NCBI RefSeq assembly: GCF_022848905.1
Contig: NZ_JAFIRA010000012.1
Span: 1 to 64,000 of the forward strand
Direction: 5' to 3'
DNA length: 64,000 nucleotides
Origin: Thermostichus vulcanus str. 'Rupite'
Lineage (GTDB): Bacteria; Cyanobacteriota; Cyanobacteriia; Thermostichales; Thermostichaceae
This document shows, one piece after another, positions 4,861 to 37,984 of the stretch (positions are counted from its first letter, which is position 1; every line of letters starts with the position of its first letter). The notes under the pieces are model-generated. The model was not told the origin of the DNA. It saw only the letters and a list, made by a program, of their open reading frames with translations, and searched no databases. Both the position numbers and the translations under genes were made by a program.

Positions 4861-7491
4861 TCAAGCCAACACAGGATCCTCTTGGTGGTAGAGGGTGGCA
4901 TCCACCTTAAAGCCGCGATAGGCCAGAACGTACAACTCCTTCATATCCCGAATCAGGGGGTAGCGGGGGTTGGCTCCGGTGCATTGGTCGTCAAAGGCTT
5001 GCTCCGCCATGGTTTCCAGGTGATCGTAAAACTCCTGCTCACTTTCGCTGAGGGTTTCCCGAATGGTCATCGGGATCCCGACTTTTTGCTTCAGATCCTC
5101 AATGGCATCGATGAGCCGCATCACCTTTTCATCGTCGTTGGCTCCGCCCAGTTGCAGGTGATCGGCAATCTCGGCATAGCGGTGCTTGGCGTTGGGATAA
5201 CGGTATTGCGGGAAGATGGCCTGTTTGAAGGGGGCATCCGTGGCGTTATAGCGGATCACATGGCTGATCATCAAGGCATTGGCTAACCCATGGGGTACAT
5301 GGAAGGTGGATCCCAGTTTGTGGGCCAGCGAGTGACACACCCCCAAAAAGGCGTTGGCAAAGGCCATCCCGGCGATGGTGGCGGCGTAGTGAACCTTCTC
5401 ACGGGCTTCGGGATCCTCCGCTCCTTTTTGGTAGGCTCGCGGCAGATAGGTGAGCAGCAGCTTGATCGCCTGCAGCGCCAGTCCATCGGTAAAGTCGCTG
5501 GCCATGACCGACACGTAGCTCTCCAGGGCATGGGTGAGGGCATCGATGCCACCATAGGCGGTCAGTCGTCGGGGCATGTTCAAGGTCAAGTCGGGATCCA
5601 CAATGGCCATATTGGGGGTGAGGGCGTAGTCTGCTAGGGGATACTTGATCCCCACCCGGTCGTCGGTGACCACTGCAAAGGGGGTGACTTCCGATCCCGT
5701 GCCAGAAGTCGTGGGAATACAGATCAACTGAGCTTTTTGGCCCAACGCTGGCAACTCATAGACGCGCTTGCGGATATCCATGAAGCGCATCGCCAGCCCC
5801 TCAAACTCCACCTGGGGCTGCTCGTACATCAGCCACATCACCTTGGCCGCATCCATCGGGGATCCCCCGCCAACGGCAATGATCACATCCGGCTGGAAGT
5901 TACGCAGTTGCTCCAGGCCGCGATTGACGTTGCTGAGGGTGGGATCCGGCTCCACATCGTGGTAAACATCCCAGTTCACCTTGATCTCATCCAACACCTG
6001 GGTGATGGGCTGCAACATACCCAAGTCAAAGAGGGGTTTATCGGTGACTAAAAAGGCCCGTTTTTTCCCTTCCAACTCCCGCAAGGCCACCGGCAAACAA
6101 CCCGGCTTGAAATAGATCTTCGGTGGGATCCGGAACCAGAGCATGTTTTCTCGGCGTTGGGTGACGGTTTTGAGATTGAGCAGATGGTGCGGCCCGACAT
6201 TTTCGGAAACCGAGTTGCCTCCCCAGGTACCGCAGCCGAGGGTGAGGGAGGGATCCAACTTGAAGTTGTAGAGATCCCCAATCGCCCCTTGAGAGGAGGG
6301 TGTATTGATCAGGACTCGCGCAGTTTGCAGGGCATTTTCAAAGTAGGCGATATCGTCCCGATTGGCGGGATCCGTGTAGAGGACTGAAGTATGGCCTTTA
6401 CCGCCAAAATTGACCAGTTGCGAAGCAATCTCGACAGCAGCATGAAAATCTTGGGCGCGATAGAGGGCCAAGACCGGGGCTAATTTTTCGTAGGAGAAGG
6501 GTTCCTCAACGCCAACGCTATCCACTTCCCCAATCAACACTTTGGCTTCTTCAGGCACCCGGATCCCAGCCAAGGCTGCGATCGCCTCAACCGGTTGACC
6601 CACTATCGCTGGGTTCAAGCGGCCATCTTTGAGGATAATTTGTCGGACTGCTGCCGTTTGTTCGGCATCCAAAAGGTACGCTCCCCGATTCTGAAACTCA
6701 GCTTTCACCTGTTCATAAATGGCATCCACCACCACTACCGATTGCTCAGAGGCACAGATCATGCCGTTGTCGAAGGTTTTGCTCAACAAAATCGAGCTGA
6801 CTGCCATTGGAATATCCGCACTGGCATCGATCACCGCCGGGGTATTGCCCGCCCCCACCCCTAACGAAGGATGCCCAGAGGAGTAGGCGGCTTTGACCAT
6901 GCCGGGGCCACCGGTAGCCAGGATCAATTTCACCTCAGGGTGCTGCATCAAAGCCTGGGACAGTTCGACCGTGGGTTCATCAATCCAGCCAATCAAGCCT
7001 ACGGGAGCACCCGCAGCCTCAGCAGCCTCCTTAACGATCTTGGCCGCAGCAATGGTACAGCCTTTGGCTCTGGGGTGAGGCGAAAAGATAATGGCGTTAC
7101 GGGTTTTGAGAGCAATCAGTGCTTTGAAAATTGTGGTGGAGGTGGGGTTGGTCACGGGCACAATACCGGCCAGAAGCCCAACTGGTTCAGCAATTTTTTC
7201 GTAACCAAAGCTTTCATCTCGCTCAATCACACCACAGGTTTTTTCATGTTTGTATTTGTTGTAGATATATTCCGAAGCAAAGTGATTTTTGATCACCTTG
7301 TCTTCCACAATGCCCATGCCGGTTTCCTGCACGGCTAGCTTAGCCAACGGGATCCGTTCATTATTGGCCGCCAAGGCTGCCTTGCGGAAGATTTGATCCA
7401 CTTGTTCTTGGGTGAAGGTGGCGTATTGGGCTTGGGCGGCTTTTACCTGTTGGATCAATTCTTCTAGGTCTGCGAGGTTGGATACAGGCAT
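4861..7491 (-). CDS. adhE: Bifunctional acetaldehyde-CoA/alcohol dehydrogenase AdhE
   Basis: Converts acetyl-CoA to acetaldehyde and then ethanol, oxidising two NADH; forms spirosomes in other bacteria. 876 aa. The N-terminal half is a CoA-acylating aldehyde dehydrogenase, with the nucleophile in NGMICASEQS (about residue 245). The C-terminal half is an iron-dependent alcohol dehydrogenase, with GGGSPMDAAK, GTGSEVTPFAVVTD and metal-ligand histidines in the stretches around DALTHALESY, CHSLAHKLGS and HVPHGLANAL. The ATG at 7491 is chosen because the product then starts MPVSNLADLEEL like E. coli AdhE and a GGAGGG ribosome site lies just upstream; a TTG four codons earlier overlaps that site. 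It is co-directional with pflB and pflA. Confidence 0.97.
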   Translation of the reverse strand: MPVSNLADLEELIQQVKAAQAQYATFTQEQVDQIFRKAALAANNERIPLAKLAVQETGMGIVEDKVIKNHFASEYIYNKYKHEKTCGVIERDESFGYEKIAEPVGLLAGIVPVTNPTSTTIFKALIALKTRNAIIFSPHPRAKGCTIAAAKIVKEAAEAAGAPVGLIGWIDEPTVELSQALMQHPEVKLILATGGPGMVKAAYSSGHPSLGVGAGNTPAVIDASADIPMAVSSILLSKTFDNGMICASEQSVVVVDAIYEQVKAEFQNRGAYLLDAEQTAAVRQIILKDGRLNPAIVGQPVEAIAALAGIRVPEEAKVLIGEVDSVGVEEPFSYEKLAPVLALYRAQDFHAAVEIASQLVNFGGKGHTSVLYTDPANRDDIAYFENALQTARVLINTPSSQGAIGDLYNFKLDPSLTLGCGTWGGNSVSENVGPHHLLNLKTVTQRRENMLWFRIPPKIYFKPGCLPVALRELEGKKRAFLVTDKPLFDLGMLQPITQVLDEIKVNWDVYHDVEPDPTLSNVNRGLEQLRNFQPDVIIAVGGGSPMDAAKVMWLMYEQPQVEFEGLAMRFMDIRKRVYELPALGQKAQLICIPTTSGTGSEVTPFAVVTDDRVGIKYPLADYALTPNMAIVDPDLTLNMPRRLTAYGGIDALTHALESYVSVMASDFTDGLALQAIKLLLTYLPRAYQKGAEDPEAREKVHYAATIAGMAFANAFLGVCHSLAHKLGSTFHVPHGLANALMISHVIRYNATDAPFKQAIFPQYRYPNAKHRYAEIADHLQLGGANDDEKVMRLIDAIEDLKQKVGIPMTIRETLSESEQEFYDHLETMAEQAFDDQCTGANPRYPLIRDMKELYVLAYRGFKVDATLYHQEDPVLA

Positions 7492-33445: not shown

Positions 33446-33903
33446 TTAGCTTATCACATGAAATCTGTCATAGACAATATGTGCTTTGGGAAATACCGGC
33501 TTGACTACCCTGGCAAATCCAGCCCCTATATCGATGCTAACCTCTTCGATATTCAGCCTCTCTTCCTCTGTCCATAGGCTTTCTAGATATTCAGTAAGCT
33601 CTTCCGCCTTGTGAACATCAATCACCTCAATGAGACAATGATTCTCCAGATCGCTGATAACTCTCACATATTGATTATGCCCTTTTCGCATGCTTATCTC
33701 GTCGATACTGATTTTCTTGAGCTGAAACCCTTGGGCTTTTTTGCTTGTCGCTGCTCAAACTGACAGTTGAATATTCCTTCAAAATGAGGACAAATCCTCT
33801 CGTTAGTATTCAGCTCTAGTTTGAGGACAACGCGGTGTTCTAACTCTACAAACTCTTGGGTTTTGACTCCAGCAAGACCCAATAACTTATCAAAAGAAAC
33901 CAA
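33446..33903 (-). pseudogene. ISL3-type transposase, N-terminal half, frameshifted
   Basis: The first piece reads LDKLLGLAG-like ISL3 starts (VSFDKLLGLAGVKTQEFVEL) and CPHFEG near a degenerate zinc-finger position. About one base is missing near 33,740; after that the frame reads LKKISIDEISMRKGHNQYVR and VSIDIGAGFARVVKPVFPKA and HIVYDRFHVIS, the DDE region of ISL3 transposases. It stops there, so the C-terminal half with the last acidic residue is lost. No terminal inverted repeats were found. Confidence 0.75.
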
Positions 33904-33991: not shown

Positions 33992-34712
33992 TCAAGACTG
34001 ATTCCAGTATCCTTTTCTTCGAATTCGCAACAACACCTGGGCAACCAAGGTCAAAACTGGTAACTCAATCAGGGGGCCGATCACCAAAGCTAACGGGATC
34101 AGTGGACGCTCAGTAAAAGCAGAAGCAGCAATCGCCAGAGAGAGTGGAGAATTGCGAGCCAAAGTGGTACAGGTTAAACAGGCTAACTCCTCGTACGTTA
34201 AATCTAAAAAACGGCAAAAAAAGAATCCACAGCAATCCAGTCAGTAGATTTTCAGGATTTAACTCAACCAGATCTCCTGCTAAAAATAACAGATAAACTG
34301 GCAAAAGTAGGATTTGCAGAATCCAGTTGAGGGGCAACAGGGCGGTGGCCAGTACCACATCCCCACCTGCTATCCCTGTAAACACCAGATACCAGTCTGT
34401 GCAAGAGGTTACCATCAGCAGGATCAGGCCAACCCACAAATCCGGCTGATCCGACAAAAAAAGAGCCCCCAGTCCCCAAGCCAAAGCTGGGGTCCAGAGA
34501 AAGTTGATGAACAAACTTGCCCACACCACTTGGGAGGCATAATACATTTGCTTGAATTTCTGAATCGGAATTCCCAGGAAAGTCAGATAGAGCAGCAAAG
34601 CTAGCAGCGGTTGAATAAAGCTCCCCAGAATCTTTTCAGAATTCGACCACCCTGTGAGCGCCAGACCCCCCAAAACCGACAACATGACAAACAAAGGTTG
34701 GGCTTTTTCCAT
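33992..34712 (-). pseudogene. ACR3/bile-acid-symporter-type transporter, internally deleted and frameshifted
   Basis: The first 165 residues are a normal N-terminal half: SFIQPLLALLLYLTFLGIPI, YYASQVVWASLFINFLWTPA, LILLMVTSCTDWYLVFTGIA. Near 34,200 the frame shifts. In another frame the sequence continues [20 protein letters not shown] then LAIAASAF and [20 protein letters not shown] to a TGA at 33,992, which is the C-terminus of the family. About 80 residues normally found in between are missing. So both a deletion and a frameshift have occurred. The ancestral protein may have exported arsenite or another small ion. Confidence 0.75.
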
Positions 34713-34746: not shown

Positions 34747-35934
34747 CTAACGATTGGTCAGGGTAGATAAAGAAGGCAGGATATCCTCTCGAAAGGGGAC
34801 CTCATTTTGATTAACGTTTTCCAGCTCAGCCAACATGAGAGGATTGACTCGATTCAGGTAGGGTATCAACACTTGTTGTAGTCGTGGGTGATAGAAACGA
34901 TGGTAGCTGTAGACAGGTGTAGCGGGAAATCCGCGCCGAATTTTATGGGATCCCCCAGCACCAGGATCGAAATTACGGATCCCTTCTTGAATCGCAAGTG
35001 CAATCGGCTCATAATAGCAAACATTAAAATGTAGGAACTTAACTTCTTCCCGACAGCCCCAGTAGCGTCCAAACAACCGCTCCCCCTTGCGTATACAGAA
35101 GGACATCCCCACCACATCACCTGCCCGTTCTCCTGCTACCAAAACCACGCGATCCCGATAGTGGGAGTGTAAAGATTCAAAAAAACGACGGTTAAGATAT
35201 TTGCTCCAATTCCAAAACTGGGCGCAGGTATTGCTGTAAAAGTCATACATCAGTGAGAGAAGCCGTGGCGAGATGTTATCTCCAGTATAAATATTCAGTT
35301 GAAGGCCACTTTTCTCCATGGCTGCTCGTTCTCGTTTGATATTCCGTCTTTGATTGGCATTAAATTGACTCAAAAAGTCTTCGTAAGAGCTATAGCCAGG
35401 ATTGTGCCATTGGTAGTTATGGGTAATGCGGGGAATAAATCCATCCGCTTCCAGTTGTGACCGCCAGTCCAGATCCACATAAAGTAAACTGAAAACGGAA
35501 ATATCATTCTCTTGGCAAAAGTGATCAATCGCCATTAACATTAGCGGCCACAGTTCTGCTTCCGAATGCTCGGGATGAACGAGAATGCGATAGCCGGTGG
35601 CCGGAGTAAACGGGGCCATGCCGATCAGTTTTGGGTAATAACGTTCCCCCAGTTGGCTGGCGACTGAAGCCCATTCTTGGTCAAAAACAAATTCCCCCTG
35701 GCTGTGGCTTTTCAAATACAGCGGAGCAGCAGCAATCAACTGGCCTTCCGATTCCACCAAGAGATGGCAGGGCATCCACCCGGTTTTCCGGCTGGCAGAT
35801 CCTGAGCTTTCTAAACTGTGCAGCCATTCGTATTCCAAAAAGGGAGAGGTGCGCTCCGTTTCCAGCGCTTTCCAGCTGGCTGCTGGGATCTCGCGGATAT
35901 CGTGGCACCAACGCAACTTCAAACGGGTTGACAT
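34747..35934 (-). CDS. FemAB/GNAT-type acyl- or aminoacyl-transferase (COG3146-like)
   Basis: 395 aa. It matches the uncharacterised family annotated as peptidoglycan biosynthesis/recognition proteins, with two GNAT-like halves as in FemAB. Recognisable blocks are SPFLEYEWLHSLESSGSAS, FNANQRRNIKRERAAMEKSG, FYSNTCAQFWNWSKYLNRRF and GRYWGCREEVKFLHFNVCYY. FemAB proteins use aminoacyl-tRNA; COG3146 members have no proven substrate. It starts 16 bp inside the preceding small gene and forms an operon with the ATP-grasp and esterase genes. Confidence 0.8.
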   Translation of the reverse strand: MSTRLKLRWCHDIREIPAASWKALETERTSPFLEYEWLHSLESSGSASRKTGWMPCHLLVESEGQLIAAAPLYLKSHSQGEFVFDQEWASVASQLGERYYPKLIGMAPFTPATGYRILVHPEHSEAELWPLMLMAIDHFCQENDISVFSLLYVDLDWRSQLEADGFIPRITHNYQWHNPGYSSYEDFLSQFNANQRRNIKRERAAMEKSGLQLNIYTGDNISPRLLSLMYDFYSNTCAQFWNWSKYLNRRFFESLHSHYRDRVVLVAGERAGDVVGMSFCIRKGERLFGRYWGCREEVKFLHFNVCYYEPIALAIQEGIRNFDPGAGGSHKIRRGFPATPVYSYHRFYHPRLQQVLIPYLNRVNPLMLAELENVNQNEVPFREDILPSLSTLTNR

Positions 35935-36107
35935 TGGCCTGCTCGAATCAATCCAACCCGTCGTGCCATTGCTTCAGCTTGGCTGGAGAAAGGTCCCCAA
36001 TGCTCCTGCTGGCTCAACAAGGGATCCTCAGCAGAAAGGGACAGCACCTGACAGGATCCCTGCGGCTGCTTGATCACATACCATTCCGAAACGGGATCTG
36101 AAACCAT
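35919..36107 (-). CDS. Small conserved cyanobacterial protein
   Basis: 62 aa from the ATG at 36,107, with an AGGGAG site eight bases upstream. It reads MVSDPVSEWYVIKQPQGSCQ at the start and EHWGPFSSQAEAMARRVGLI then RAGQCQPV at the end, a pattern I recognise from small cyanobacterial proteins without known function. It overlaps the FemAB-like start by 16 bases, so translation is probably coupled. Confidence 0.7.
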   Translation of the reverse strand: MVSDPVSEWYVIKQPQGSCQVLSLSAEDPLLSQQEHWGPFSSQAEAMARRVGLIRAGQCQPV

Positions 36108-36164
36108 GCTGCTACTCCCTTGCAAAGACAGAACCTCCCCGACGGGGCCTATCTTCCCTTGATT

Positions 36165-37223
36165 CTAGTCGGGATCCCGAGGCTCGTAGTAGCGGTTGGC
36201 TAGCTCTAGGGCTGCCTGAAACTTTTGCTCACGGCTGAGATCAGAACGACGGGCAATATGAGCGAAGGTATTGATGTCCGGGGGCAGAAAGTCGAAAGAG
36301 CGCTGTTCCCGTACAATCTCGACTACCAAGTCACAAAGGGCCTGCTGATAATCATTGTAAAAAATTTCTCCCAAGGCTTTCAGACGGCCATCGGGCACAG
36401 GATTATTAAAATCAATGGCTTGGAGTTCTCCCTGTTCATCGATAAACATCTCTACAGAGTTCATCTCATAGCCCAAAACCCGATTGATAATCCGACAGGT
36501 ATCAATCACTTTTCTTCCTAACTCCGGGGTTAGAAACTCGGGATCAAAAATATATTCACTGGCATCTAGCTTGCGAAAGATATACTTGATCGGGATGATT
36601 TTACGACCAATACACAAAGCTCTGATTTGCCAAGGGTAGGGAGTTTTCACCTTCTCCTGTAGCATCATCACCTGAGATCCCGAATGGTTGTACAAATACA
36701 GCAGTTGATCGAGGTTATAGGCCAGTTCTACCCCAATCGCCTCCCGTCCTTCCGCAGGTTTGATGACAATGGGCCAGCCCAGTTCTTCAATCATTCCTTG
36801 CCAATCGAAAAATTTGTGGTACTTAAAATCGTCTCCTTGGAGAGCGGGGGCTTCTTTCGGGGGCAAGATATAGGTTTTTGGAATGGAGATACCCAAGTCT
36901 TTAACTACCATATAGGCAGCATCTTTGTTCCGCAGATAATAATAGAAACTGAAGGGATTATTGATGATATAAACGCCTTGAAAAGCAAAGCCCATAAACA
37001 AGCCAATTGCCTGTGGGTATAGATAGCTAAAGCGATCCAAGATCAGGCGATATTTGGTGCGGTAATCCAGATCAACCTCGTGAATGGTGACATGTTCGGC
37101 TCGGATCTTATAGGTTTGGCCATTGACAGCAGCGATGGGCGGGAGAGCATTGAGCCGCTCCACGGTTTCATCCCCAAAGGGCTCGCTAAAGTGCAAACTG
37201 CCAATCCAGTAGTCTTCCGTCAT
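36165..37223 (-). CDS. ATP-grasp ligase
   Basis: 352 aa from the ATG at 37,223, which follows a GAAGGGAAG site. ATP-grasp marks: a lysine in GWPIVIKPAEGREAIGVELA, QEKVKTPYPWQIRALCIGRK, and the metal-binding end EMFIDEQGELQAIDFNNPVP. Such enzymes join a carboxylate to an amine or thiol with acyl-phosphate formation (RimK/glutathione-synthetase style). The substrate is unknown. It lies between the esterase and the FemAB-like gene, which suggests a shared pathway that activates and modifies an amino acid or peptide. Confidence 0.82.
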   Translation of the reverse strand: MTEDYWIGSLHFSEPFGDETVERLNALPPIAAVNGQTYKIRAEHVTIHEVDLDYRTKYRLILDRFSYLYPQAIGLFMGFAFQGVYIINNPFSFYYYLRNKDAAYMVVKDLGISIPKTYILPPKEAPALQGDDFKYHKFFDWQGMIEELGWPIVIKPAEGREAIGVELAYNLDQLLYLYNHSGSQVMMLQEKVKTPYPWQIRALCIGRKIIPIKYIFRKLDASEYIFDPEFLTPELGRKVIDTCRIINRVLGYEMNSVEMFIDEQGELQAIDFNNPVPDGRLKALGEIFYNDYQQALCDLVVEIVREQRSFDFLPPDINTFAHIARRSDLSREQKFQAALELANRYYEPRDPD

Positions 37224-37252
37224 GGTCTTCCCTTCACTCCTCACATGGGATC

Positions 37253-37984
37253 CTACGCGAAGGCACGGATTTGCGCTTGCCACGTGGGCCAGTCGTGATC
37301 CCCTTCCCAGACTTCCAGTTGATGGGGGATGCCGTTGCGGTTGAGAACTTCTGACAGACGCAGATTATCGCTAAGGCAGTGGTCATGGTGCGCCGTTAAC
37401 AACTTGAGATCCGTATTGCGCCCCCCCAATTGATCCCACAGTTGCCGGCTCATGTTGGACATGTAAGCGAGCGGGTTGATAAAATACAGCTCCTGTTCCG
37501 CCTGTTTGGGATCCCAGCCGGTAATGGATCCCAGCGCTGCTACATCGTAAGGCCCACCCAAAGCCAGACAACGGCGGACCAACCCCGGATGCCGACAGGT
37601 GAGATTGACCGCATGGGTTGCACCTAGCGAAAACCCGGCTACCACCAAAAAATCGTTTTGGGCTTCGTCCCTGACATAGGGGATCAGCTCCTCCACCCAG
37701 TGTTGCTCCAGCAACAACCATTGATCCCGCCGTTGTGGCAATTCCAGTTTACGGTTGAAAAAGGTTTCCCAGTCTAGGGTTTCTACACAAAAGGCTTGCA
37801 GATAGCCCTGCTCCAGATGATGGCTAAGGCTGGCAATAATGCCTCGATCTTCTAGGTCGAAGAAGCGGCCATTGCTGGTGGGCAGACAGATCAGTGGGTA
37901 ACCCTGATGCCCGAAGTGGAGCATCTCCATCTCCCGGCCCAAAATCCGAGAGGGGAAGCGCAAGTACTGACGGGAATAGGACAT
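37253..37984 (-). CDS. Alpha/beta-hydrolase, esterase-like
   Basis: 243 aa. The nucleophile elbow is GFSLGATHAVN (GxSxG), with a likely acid in LTAHHDHCLSDN and histidine in EGDHDWPTW near the C-terminus. It resembles the esterase D/Fes-type group. No signal peptide. It is the first gene of a four-gene minus-strand cassette and ends 29 bp before the ATP-grasp start. The natural ester or amide substrate is unknown. Confidence 0.82.
   Translation of the reverse strand: MSYSRQYLRFPSRILGREMEMLHFGHQGYPLICLPTSNGRFFDLEDRGIIASLSHHLEQGYLQAFCVETLDWETFFNRKLELPQRRDQWLLLEQHWVEELIPYVRDEAQNDFLVVAGFSLGATHAVNLTCRHPGLVRRCLALGGPYDVAALGSITGWDPKQAEQELYFINPLAYMSNMSRQLWDQLGGRNTDLKLLTAHHDHCLSDNLRLSEVLNRNGIPHQLEVWEGDHDWPTWQAQIRAFA

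Follow-up and report, generated by a model that had tools for sequence, protein, structure and literature searches.

On the minus strand of a 64,000-nucleotide window of Thermostichus vulcanus str. 'Rupite' (contig NZ_JAFIRA010000012.1, positions 1 to 64,000 of the forward strand), four closely spaced genes encode, in this order, a CE1-type esterase, an ATP-grasp ligase, a small conserved protein and a FemAB-like protein (Table 1). The reading that we favour, with a probability of about 0.55, is that this stretch consists of two units in tandem, in which unit 1 (esterase and ATP-grasp ligase) is a two-enzyme module with amide-ligase and esterase chemistry and unit 2 (small protein and FemAB-like protein) is an independent downstream resident. 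In the proposed mechanism, the ATP-grasp enzyme would activate a carboxylate as an acyl phosphate at the expense of ATP and couple it to an amine, so that in the likeliest case an amino acid, for example glutamate, is attached to a small molecule or a short peptide; the ester or thioester bond cleaved by the esterase would lie in the ligase's substrate or in its product. Overall, gamma-glutamyl conjugates, or amide conjugates of a similar kind, are probably made and broken. The ligase reaction, the bond cleaved by the esterase and the gamma-glutamyl link are inferred; the arrangement of the genes, the recurrence of the pair, purifying selection and the independence of unit 2 are observed, as are the folds in predicted form. 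Unit 2 would be the older resident of the order, placed downstream of unit 1 by chance.

Table 1. Genes of the two units, with positions in the window.
Product	Unit	Length (aa)	Position	Strand	Basis
Esterase, CE1-type serine esterase (alpha/beta hydrolase)	1	243	37253-37984	-	PF00756
ATP-grasp ligase, predicted RimK/LysX/ArgX fold	1	352	36165-37223	-	ATG start; predicted fold
Conserved cyanobacterial protein, function unassigned	2	62	35919-36107	-	ATG start
FemAB-like protein, core cyanobacterial gene	2	395	34747-35934	-	PF04339

The distribution of these genes was examined in samples of 194 genomes of the phylum, 388 of the class and nine of the order, six of the latter, including that of the window (G000), belonging to its genus. 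Both genes of unit 1 are present in 6/6 genomes of the genus (genomes that are apparently the same, i.e., L042/G200, L043/G198, L044/G035 and L115/G050, were counted once in this figure) and in 0/3 of the other genomes of the order. The order esterase, ATP-grasp, FemAB-like is kept in all six genus genomes, where none of these three large genes contains an internal stop and where they are under purifying selection, with dN/dS values of 0.02-0.11 in every pair for which they could be computed (saturation precluded this for two ATP-grasp pairs). Since the same order recurs in relatives and the three large genes are under purifying selection without internal stops, all four genes are excluded as chance open reading frames. 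Beyond the genus the four-gene set does not hold together. The ATP-grasp gene was found in 16/194 genomes of the phylum, with the two genus members as its only carriers in the window's class, and the esterase gene in 17/194, four of them in that class; in the class sample the counts are 8 for the ATP-grasp gene and 13 for the esterase gene.

A second cyanobacterial lineage nevertheless carries the pair. Among the 388 genomes of the class, one outside the genus (G227) contains both genes, adjacent and in the same order, with a gap of 28 nt, identities to the window proteins of 61% and 73% and a locus G+C of 0.602, in agreement with the 60.54% published for Gloeobacter kilaueensis. G227, together with G209 and G219, belongs to what we take to be a Gloeobacter-like lineage. 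In its congeners G209, G219 and G245 only esterase fragments (about 41-53 residues) are found, and in G254, another member of the family, only 45 residues of the ATP-grasp protein. The esterase fragment of G219 adjoins an alpha-amylase gene, by eye the same one that flanks the intact esterase of G227 (identified with Pfam in the G227 copy), and because of this shared flank it is best read as a remnant decaying in place. In locus L184, from a Gloeobacter-like genome, the esterase remnant occupies 6540-6854, beside a gene at 5027-6568 that is apparently the alpha-amylase gene found next to the intact esterase of L182. Two weaker occurrences in the sample are a more distant esterase in G212 (36%), which falls among Chloroflexota sequences in the esterase tree, and a marginal match in G143.

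The association of an esterase with this ATP-grasp family extends well outside cyanobacteria. When 84,980 species genomes were scanned with the ATP-grasp protein, 130 relatives were found, and the best 80 of these 130 were kept, of which two belong to the genus, 11 to clade a and 67 to clade b (6/80 loci without a clean open reading frame were set aside). These clades are those of a maximum-likelihood tree of 84 rows, in which clade a has 17 rows (support 99/99) and clade b 64 (100/97); loci absent from the tree were assigned by the identity gap among the listed relatives. Clade a comprises the genus, G227, Sericytochromatia, Planctomycetota, Wallbacteria, Cloacimonadota, a UBP17 bacterium and Gemmatimonadota, with the genus and G227 forming one group within it (100/100), and clade b comprises Chloroflexota, Gemmatimonadota, Myxococcota and others. 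In clade b, 39/61 loci with enough flanking sequence have a homologous esterase gene upstream of the ATP-grasp gene, in the same orientation and at most 1 kb away. Set aside for this count were 6/67 clade-b loci (and 1/11 clade-a loci) with a short flank, as well as esterase reading frames that were too long or too short, in the opposite orientation, downstream or further than 1 kb away. Esterase reading frames are 38 times denser in this 1 kb than in the other flanks (44 in 62.5 kb versus 14 in 752 kb), the loci being related rather than independent. By phylum, taken from record titles and the tree, an upstream esterase is found in 17/21 loci of Chloroflexota, 18/25 of Gemmatimonadota, 2/14 of Myxococcota and 'delta' records, 1/3 of Planctomycetota, 1/1 of Actinomycetota and 1/1 of Acidobacteriota.

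Clade-b loci often contain further genes that point to the kind of chemistry involved. A second, GSP_synth-like ATP-grasp gene lies downstream in 36/63 loci and a GCS2 gene in 35/57, a C26 hydrolase gene is present in 22/53, and esterase, second ATP-grasp and GCS2 occur together in 21/67. The GCS2 example analysed scores 541 bits against the YbdK-type carboxylate-amine ligase equivalog (cut-off 371), and the C26 example 202.6 bits against PF07722, its nearest NCBIfam model being gamma-glutamyl-GABA hydrolase (142 of 266 bits). With a YbdK-type carboxylate-amine ligase and a C26 hydrolase as partners in other phyla, the general chemistry is probably that of gamma-glutamyl or similar amide conjugates. 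In the esterase tree (49 rows), the cyanobacterial esterases of the genus, G227 and G008 make up a single long-branched clade (100/100), separate from the esterases that accompany clade b; both trees contain L042 and L043, and not G200 and G198. In outline the esterase tree matches the ATP-grasp tree, which fits co-inheritance of the two genes without proving it.

The assignment of the two enzymes rests on predicted structures as much as on profiles. The ATP-grasp protein scores below every Pfam and NCBIfam cut-off, its best match being to rimK_fam (TIGR00768, 34 of 143.4 bits), with weak matches also to LysX_arch (NCBIfam), and a sequence search of the PDB gave no close solved relative (best E 0.0056). 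A structure prediction of the ligase, for whose pocket the sequence-only reading had suggested this check, returned a RimK/LysX/ArgX-type fold at high confidence (pLDDT 92.4, pTM 0.89). Among solved structures, RimK, ArgX and LysX come closest (Z 21.5-23.9, rmsd 2.5-2.8 over 260-265 residues), the best being RimK 5zct (Z 23.9, rmsd 2.6 over 265 residues), and the same families lead in a Foldseek search. E258, D271 and N274, which do not vary across 75 sequences, probably bind the metal; the Asn usually stands two residues after the Asp, and here N274 is three after D271. The esterase matches PF00756 (44 bits, cut-off 22), gives a weak match in the PDB sequence search (E 3.1e-05) and is modelled with a pLDDT of 95.1, with an alkaline esterase as the best PDB match (Z 24.6). 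Its Ser119, in a GxSxG motif, and His230 are invariant in 42 sequences, and D201 is present in 90% or more. Because feruloyl esterases, S-formylglutathione hydrolases and antigen 85 follow as structural matches, all at Z 20-24, the predicted model does not allow the bond to be named more narrowly than an ester or a thioester.

This spread of structural matches also bears on a more specific proposal, in which unit 1 would act in thiol metabolism, with the ligase completing a glutathione-like gamma-glutamyl thiol and the esterase serving as an S-formyl- or S-acyl-thiol hydrolase. The presence of S-formylglutathione hydrolases among the nearest structures of the esterase and the frequency of GCS2 as a partner in other phyla speak for it. 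However, feruloyl esterases score equally well, no S-formylglutathione hydrolase model is among the NCBIfam matches of the esterase, and a gshA_cyano gene is already present elsewhere in the window genome, on a different contig, so that we consider a role in thiol metabolism unlikely. Glutathione synthesis proper was rejected on account of this separately located gshA_cyano gene.

Unit 2 has a history of its own. The sequence-only reading had joined all four genes into one cassette, which in its view suggested an undescribed small-molecule or peptide-modification pathway; its FemAB call was correct, as the protein scores 480.8 bits against FemAB_like PF04339 (cut-off 27) over profile positions 2-369 of 369, with no solved relative in the PDB sequence search. 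FemAB_like is above cut-off in 90/194 genomes of the phylum, usually as one main copy per genome, and the listed genomes without a match (20 of 101) all fall outside the window's class; judged by these profile matches, it is a near-universal single-copy cyanobacterial gene. It is present in 9/9 genomes of the order, and in G194 and G195, which lie outside the genus, the small gene stands directly upstream of it with neither esterase nor ATP-grasp there, in G195 with the same 16-nt overlap as in the window. On this distribution, i.e., the FemAB-like gene throughout the order and the pair without unit 1 in two of its genomes, the small protein and FemAB are the older pair in the order, upstream of which the esterase and the ATP-grasp gene arrived later or beside which they were later lost.

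A single pathway of four genes, in which the ATP-grasp and FemAB-like enzymes would add residues in turn, the esterase would trim and the small protein would be carrier or substrate, agrees with the common strand, the tight spacing and the kept order of the three large genes in all genus genomes read. It is quite unlikely in view of the core FemAB-like gene in cyanobacteria that lack ATP-grasp and esterase, the pairing of small gene and FemAB in G194 and G195, and the state of the small gene itself, which is intact in G000, G177, G198 and G199 and broken or eroded in G197 and G200, with the other three genes intact. The small protein, without a family match in Pfam or NCBIfam, occurs in 38/194 genomes of the phylum, and its gene adjoins FemAB in 2/37 genomes compared, both of this genus. 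Of the earlier proposal, the four-gene set is therefore not conserved outside the genus and does not stand as one system, while the esterase/ATP-grasp pair is conserved and keeps alive the idea of an undescribed amide- or peptide-type small-molecule pathway.

The same observations make it extremely improbable that the ATP-grasp enzyme acts on the small protein as its ribosomal precursor peptide, as in graspetides, a class of ribosomally synthesized and post-translationally modified peptides (RiPPs). A small reading frame directly downstream of an ATP-grasp gene invites this comparison, and the Foldseek matches include graspetide ligases (ranks 4, 15 and 16). However, 36 genomes of the phylum beyond the two of the genus have the small protein, of which only G007 has a (distant) ATP-grasp relative, and where the small gene has decayed in the genus (2/6 genomes) the ATP-grasp gene is intact. 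A graspetide or RiPP precursor was rejected on these grounds, the small gene mostly occurring without the ligase and thus not behaving as a dedicated precursor. A LysW-like carrier role was likewise dropped because the small protein is common where the ATP-grasp protein is absent, a rejection with no motif test behind it.

Both genes of unit 2 have other neighbours elsewhere. In other cyanobacteria, an S41 (Ctp-type) protease gene lies within about 170 nt of the small gene in 6/7 regions read (Pfam on one); the loci with the small protein beside this C-terminal processing protease are L131, L132, L134, L135, L136 and L137, and the protease is a possible functional partner of the orphan 62-aa protein. 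The FemAB-like gene is next to a RibD_C-type reductase gene in 5/7 cyanobacterial regions read (L138, L139, L140, L141 and L143), with single cases of FolB, PTPS and pterin-binding-like DUF4346 genes nearby (domains were tested on examples from L138, L140 and L143 and read by eye in the other regions), hinting at a pterin or flavin link for this core gene rather than a cell-wall one.

Several results weigh against the two-enzyme module as we propose it. In clade a outside cyanobacteria, an upstream esterase was found in 0/10 usable loci, so that the pairing is not universal even within the ATP-grasp clade of the window. Clades a and b are separated by long starred branches, with 27-32% identity between the window protein and clade b, and lying so far apart in the tree they may differ in chemistry. 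G008 has an esterase (63%) without an adjacent ATP-grasp gene. The window genome has no cluster-type second ATP-grasp (best match 35.8 bits over 112 of 451 positions, as compared to 469.5, 617.9 and 741.5 bits for the best matches in three other genomes) and no YbdK-type (TIGR02050) ligase among its two GCS2 genes, one of which is the gshA_cyano gene mentioned above (610 bits) and the other unassigned (22.3 versus 176.4 bits). As these two ligases were not found there, only part of the larger pathway, or a derived use of it, would be able to operate in cyanobacteria. Finally, the spacing alone is compatible with one four-gene transcript. If two common kinds of enzyme had come to lie together merely by chance, the clade-a loci without an upstream esterase and the lone esterase of G008 would be accounted for; this is a poor explanation, however, of an order and a tight spacing shared by two lineages of cyanobacteria and found again in six other phyla.

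Other arrangements are seen around clade-a ATP-grasp genes. In two loci of Gemmatimonadota (L051 and L054), the ATP-grasp gene is followed almost without gaps by an S51 (cyanophycinase-like) gene and an enterochelin-esterase-like PF00756 gene, possibly a separate cassette for making and breaking a peptide. Two Wallbacteria loci contain a relative of the second ATP-grasp, and in Cloacimonadota and UBP17 (L048, L049, L050 and L053) the clade-a gene is divergent from a second ATP-grasp gene of about 430 aa, with a protein of about 320 aa encoded between them that gave no Pfam match in the one tested.

A bolder extension, which we regard as doubtful, is that the pair represents the surviving first two genes of an undescribed amide-conjugate pathway of early cyanobacteria, comprising two ATP-grasps, a YbdK-type ligase, a C26 hydrolase and a CE1 esterase, which would now persist only in the Thermostichus-like and Gloeobacter-like branches and be in the course of being lost, its product being a small metabolite dispensable to crown cyanobacteria. 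These two lineages are regarded as the deepest branches of the photosynthetic cyanobacteria, and the patchy survival of the pair in them would make a piece of early cyanobacterial metabolism accessible to testing. If the pair and the wider cluster do make a gamma-glutamyl-type conjugate, this would be a new class of metabolites in several poorly studied phyla, for which cultured cyanobacteria offer ready-made test genes. For annotation, the core cyanobacterial FemAB-like gene can be set apart from the accessory pair that abuts it.

As to the immediate surroundings, the gaps of 29 nt (esterase/ATP-grasp) and 57 nt (ATP-grasp/small gene) and the overlap of 16 nt (small gene/FemAB-like) agree with the positions and spacing of the sequence-only reading. 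The ATP-grasp gene has an alternative in-frame GTG at 37283, from which it would overlap the esterase gene. A gene for a Lon substrate-binding-domain protein lies 130 nt upstream of the esterase gene, with ruvC beyond it. Scans for terminator-like sites (3, versus 3.9 in shuffles) and promoter-like sites (9, versus 3.4; the three on the strand of the genes all within the ATP-grasp gene) were not used. At 34110-34712, an SBF/ACR3-like transporter reading frame stops early, at 200 aa, and seems to run on downstream in another frame; it looks like a frameshifted gene. Two short minus-strand reading frames at 33446-33903 are, we assume, broken transposase pieces, and the segment 20001-24000 stands out from most of the window by a strong local AT skew (0.16-0.26) and a GC skew below zero.

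Among known systems, the closest to the ATP-grasp enzyme are the RimK/LysX/ArgX-type ligases, which couple a carboxylate to an amine by way of an acyl phosphate and in many cases add glutamate. They have the predicted fold in common with the window protein and differ from it by an identity of only 13-18%, by its profile scores far below both curated cut-offs, and by its additional C-terminal helical part past about residue 310; no gene resembling one for a substrate protein was recognised beside the ATP-grasp gene, none having been looked for specifically. CE1 esterases (feruloyl esterase, S-formylglutathione hydrolase/esterase D and antigen 85) have the fold, the GxSxG motif and the invariant His of the window esterase, whereas the solved members listed are at most 20% identical to it, and its own genomic partner is a ligase. 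Amidoligase pathways predicted by Iyer et al. in 2009 reportedly include neighbourhoods in which ATP-grasp, GCS2-like and GNAT-like ligases stand with hydrolases. These neighbourhoods could include the cluster of esterase, two ATP-grasps, GCS2 and C26 hydrolase, for which no published name or description was found in the portions of the literature consulted, including parts of PMC8939145, PMC4431377, PMC2922099 and PMC3806779. The esterase/ATP-grasp pair and the larger cluster look like a variant of amidoligase-type systems that, within those portions, is without a description. The nearest counterpart of unit 1 is this cluster as it occurs in Gemmatimonadota and Chloroflexota (esterase, ATP-grasp, GSP_synth-like ATP-grasp, YbdK-type GCS2 and C26), in which the esterase gene lies directly upstream of the ATP-grasp gene on the same strand, as it does in the window, whereas its ATP-grasp belongs to clade b and that of the window to clade a.

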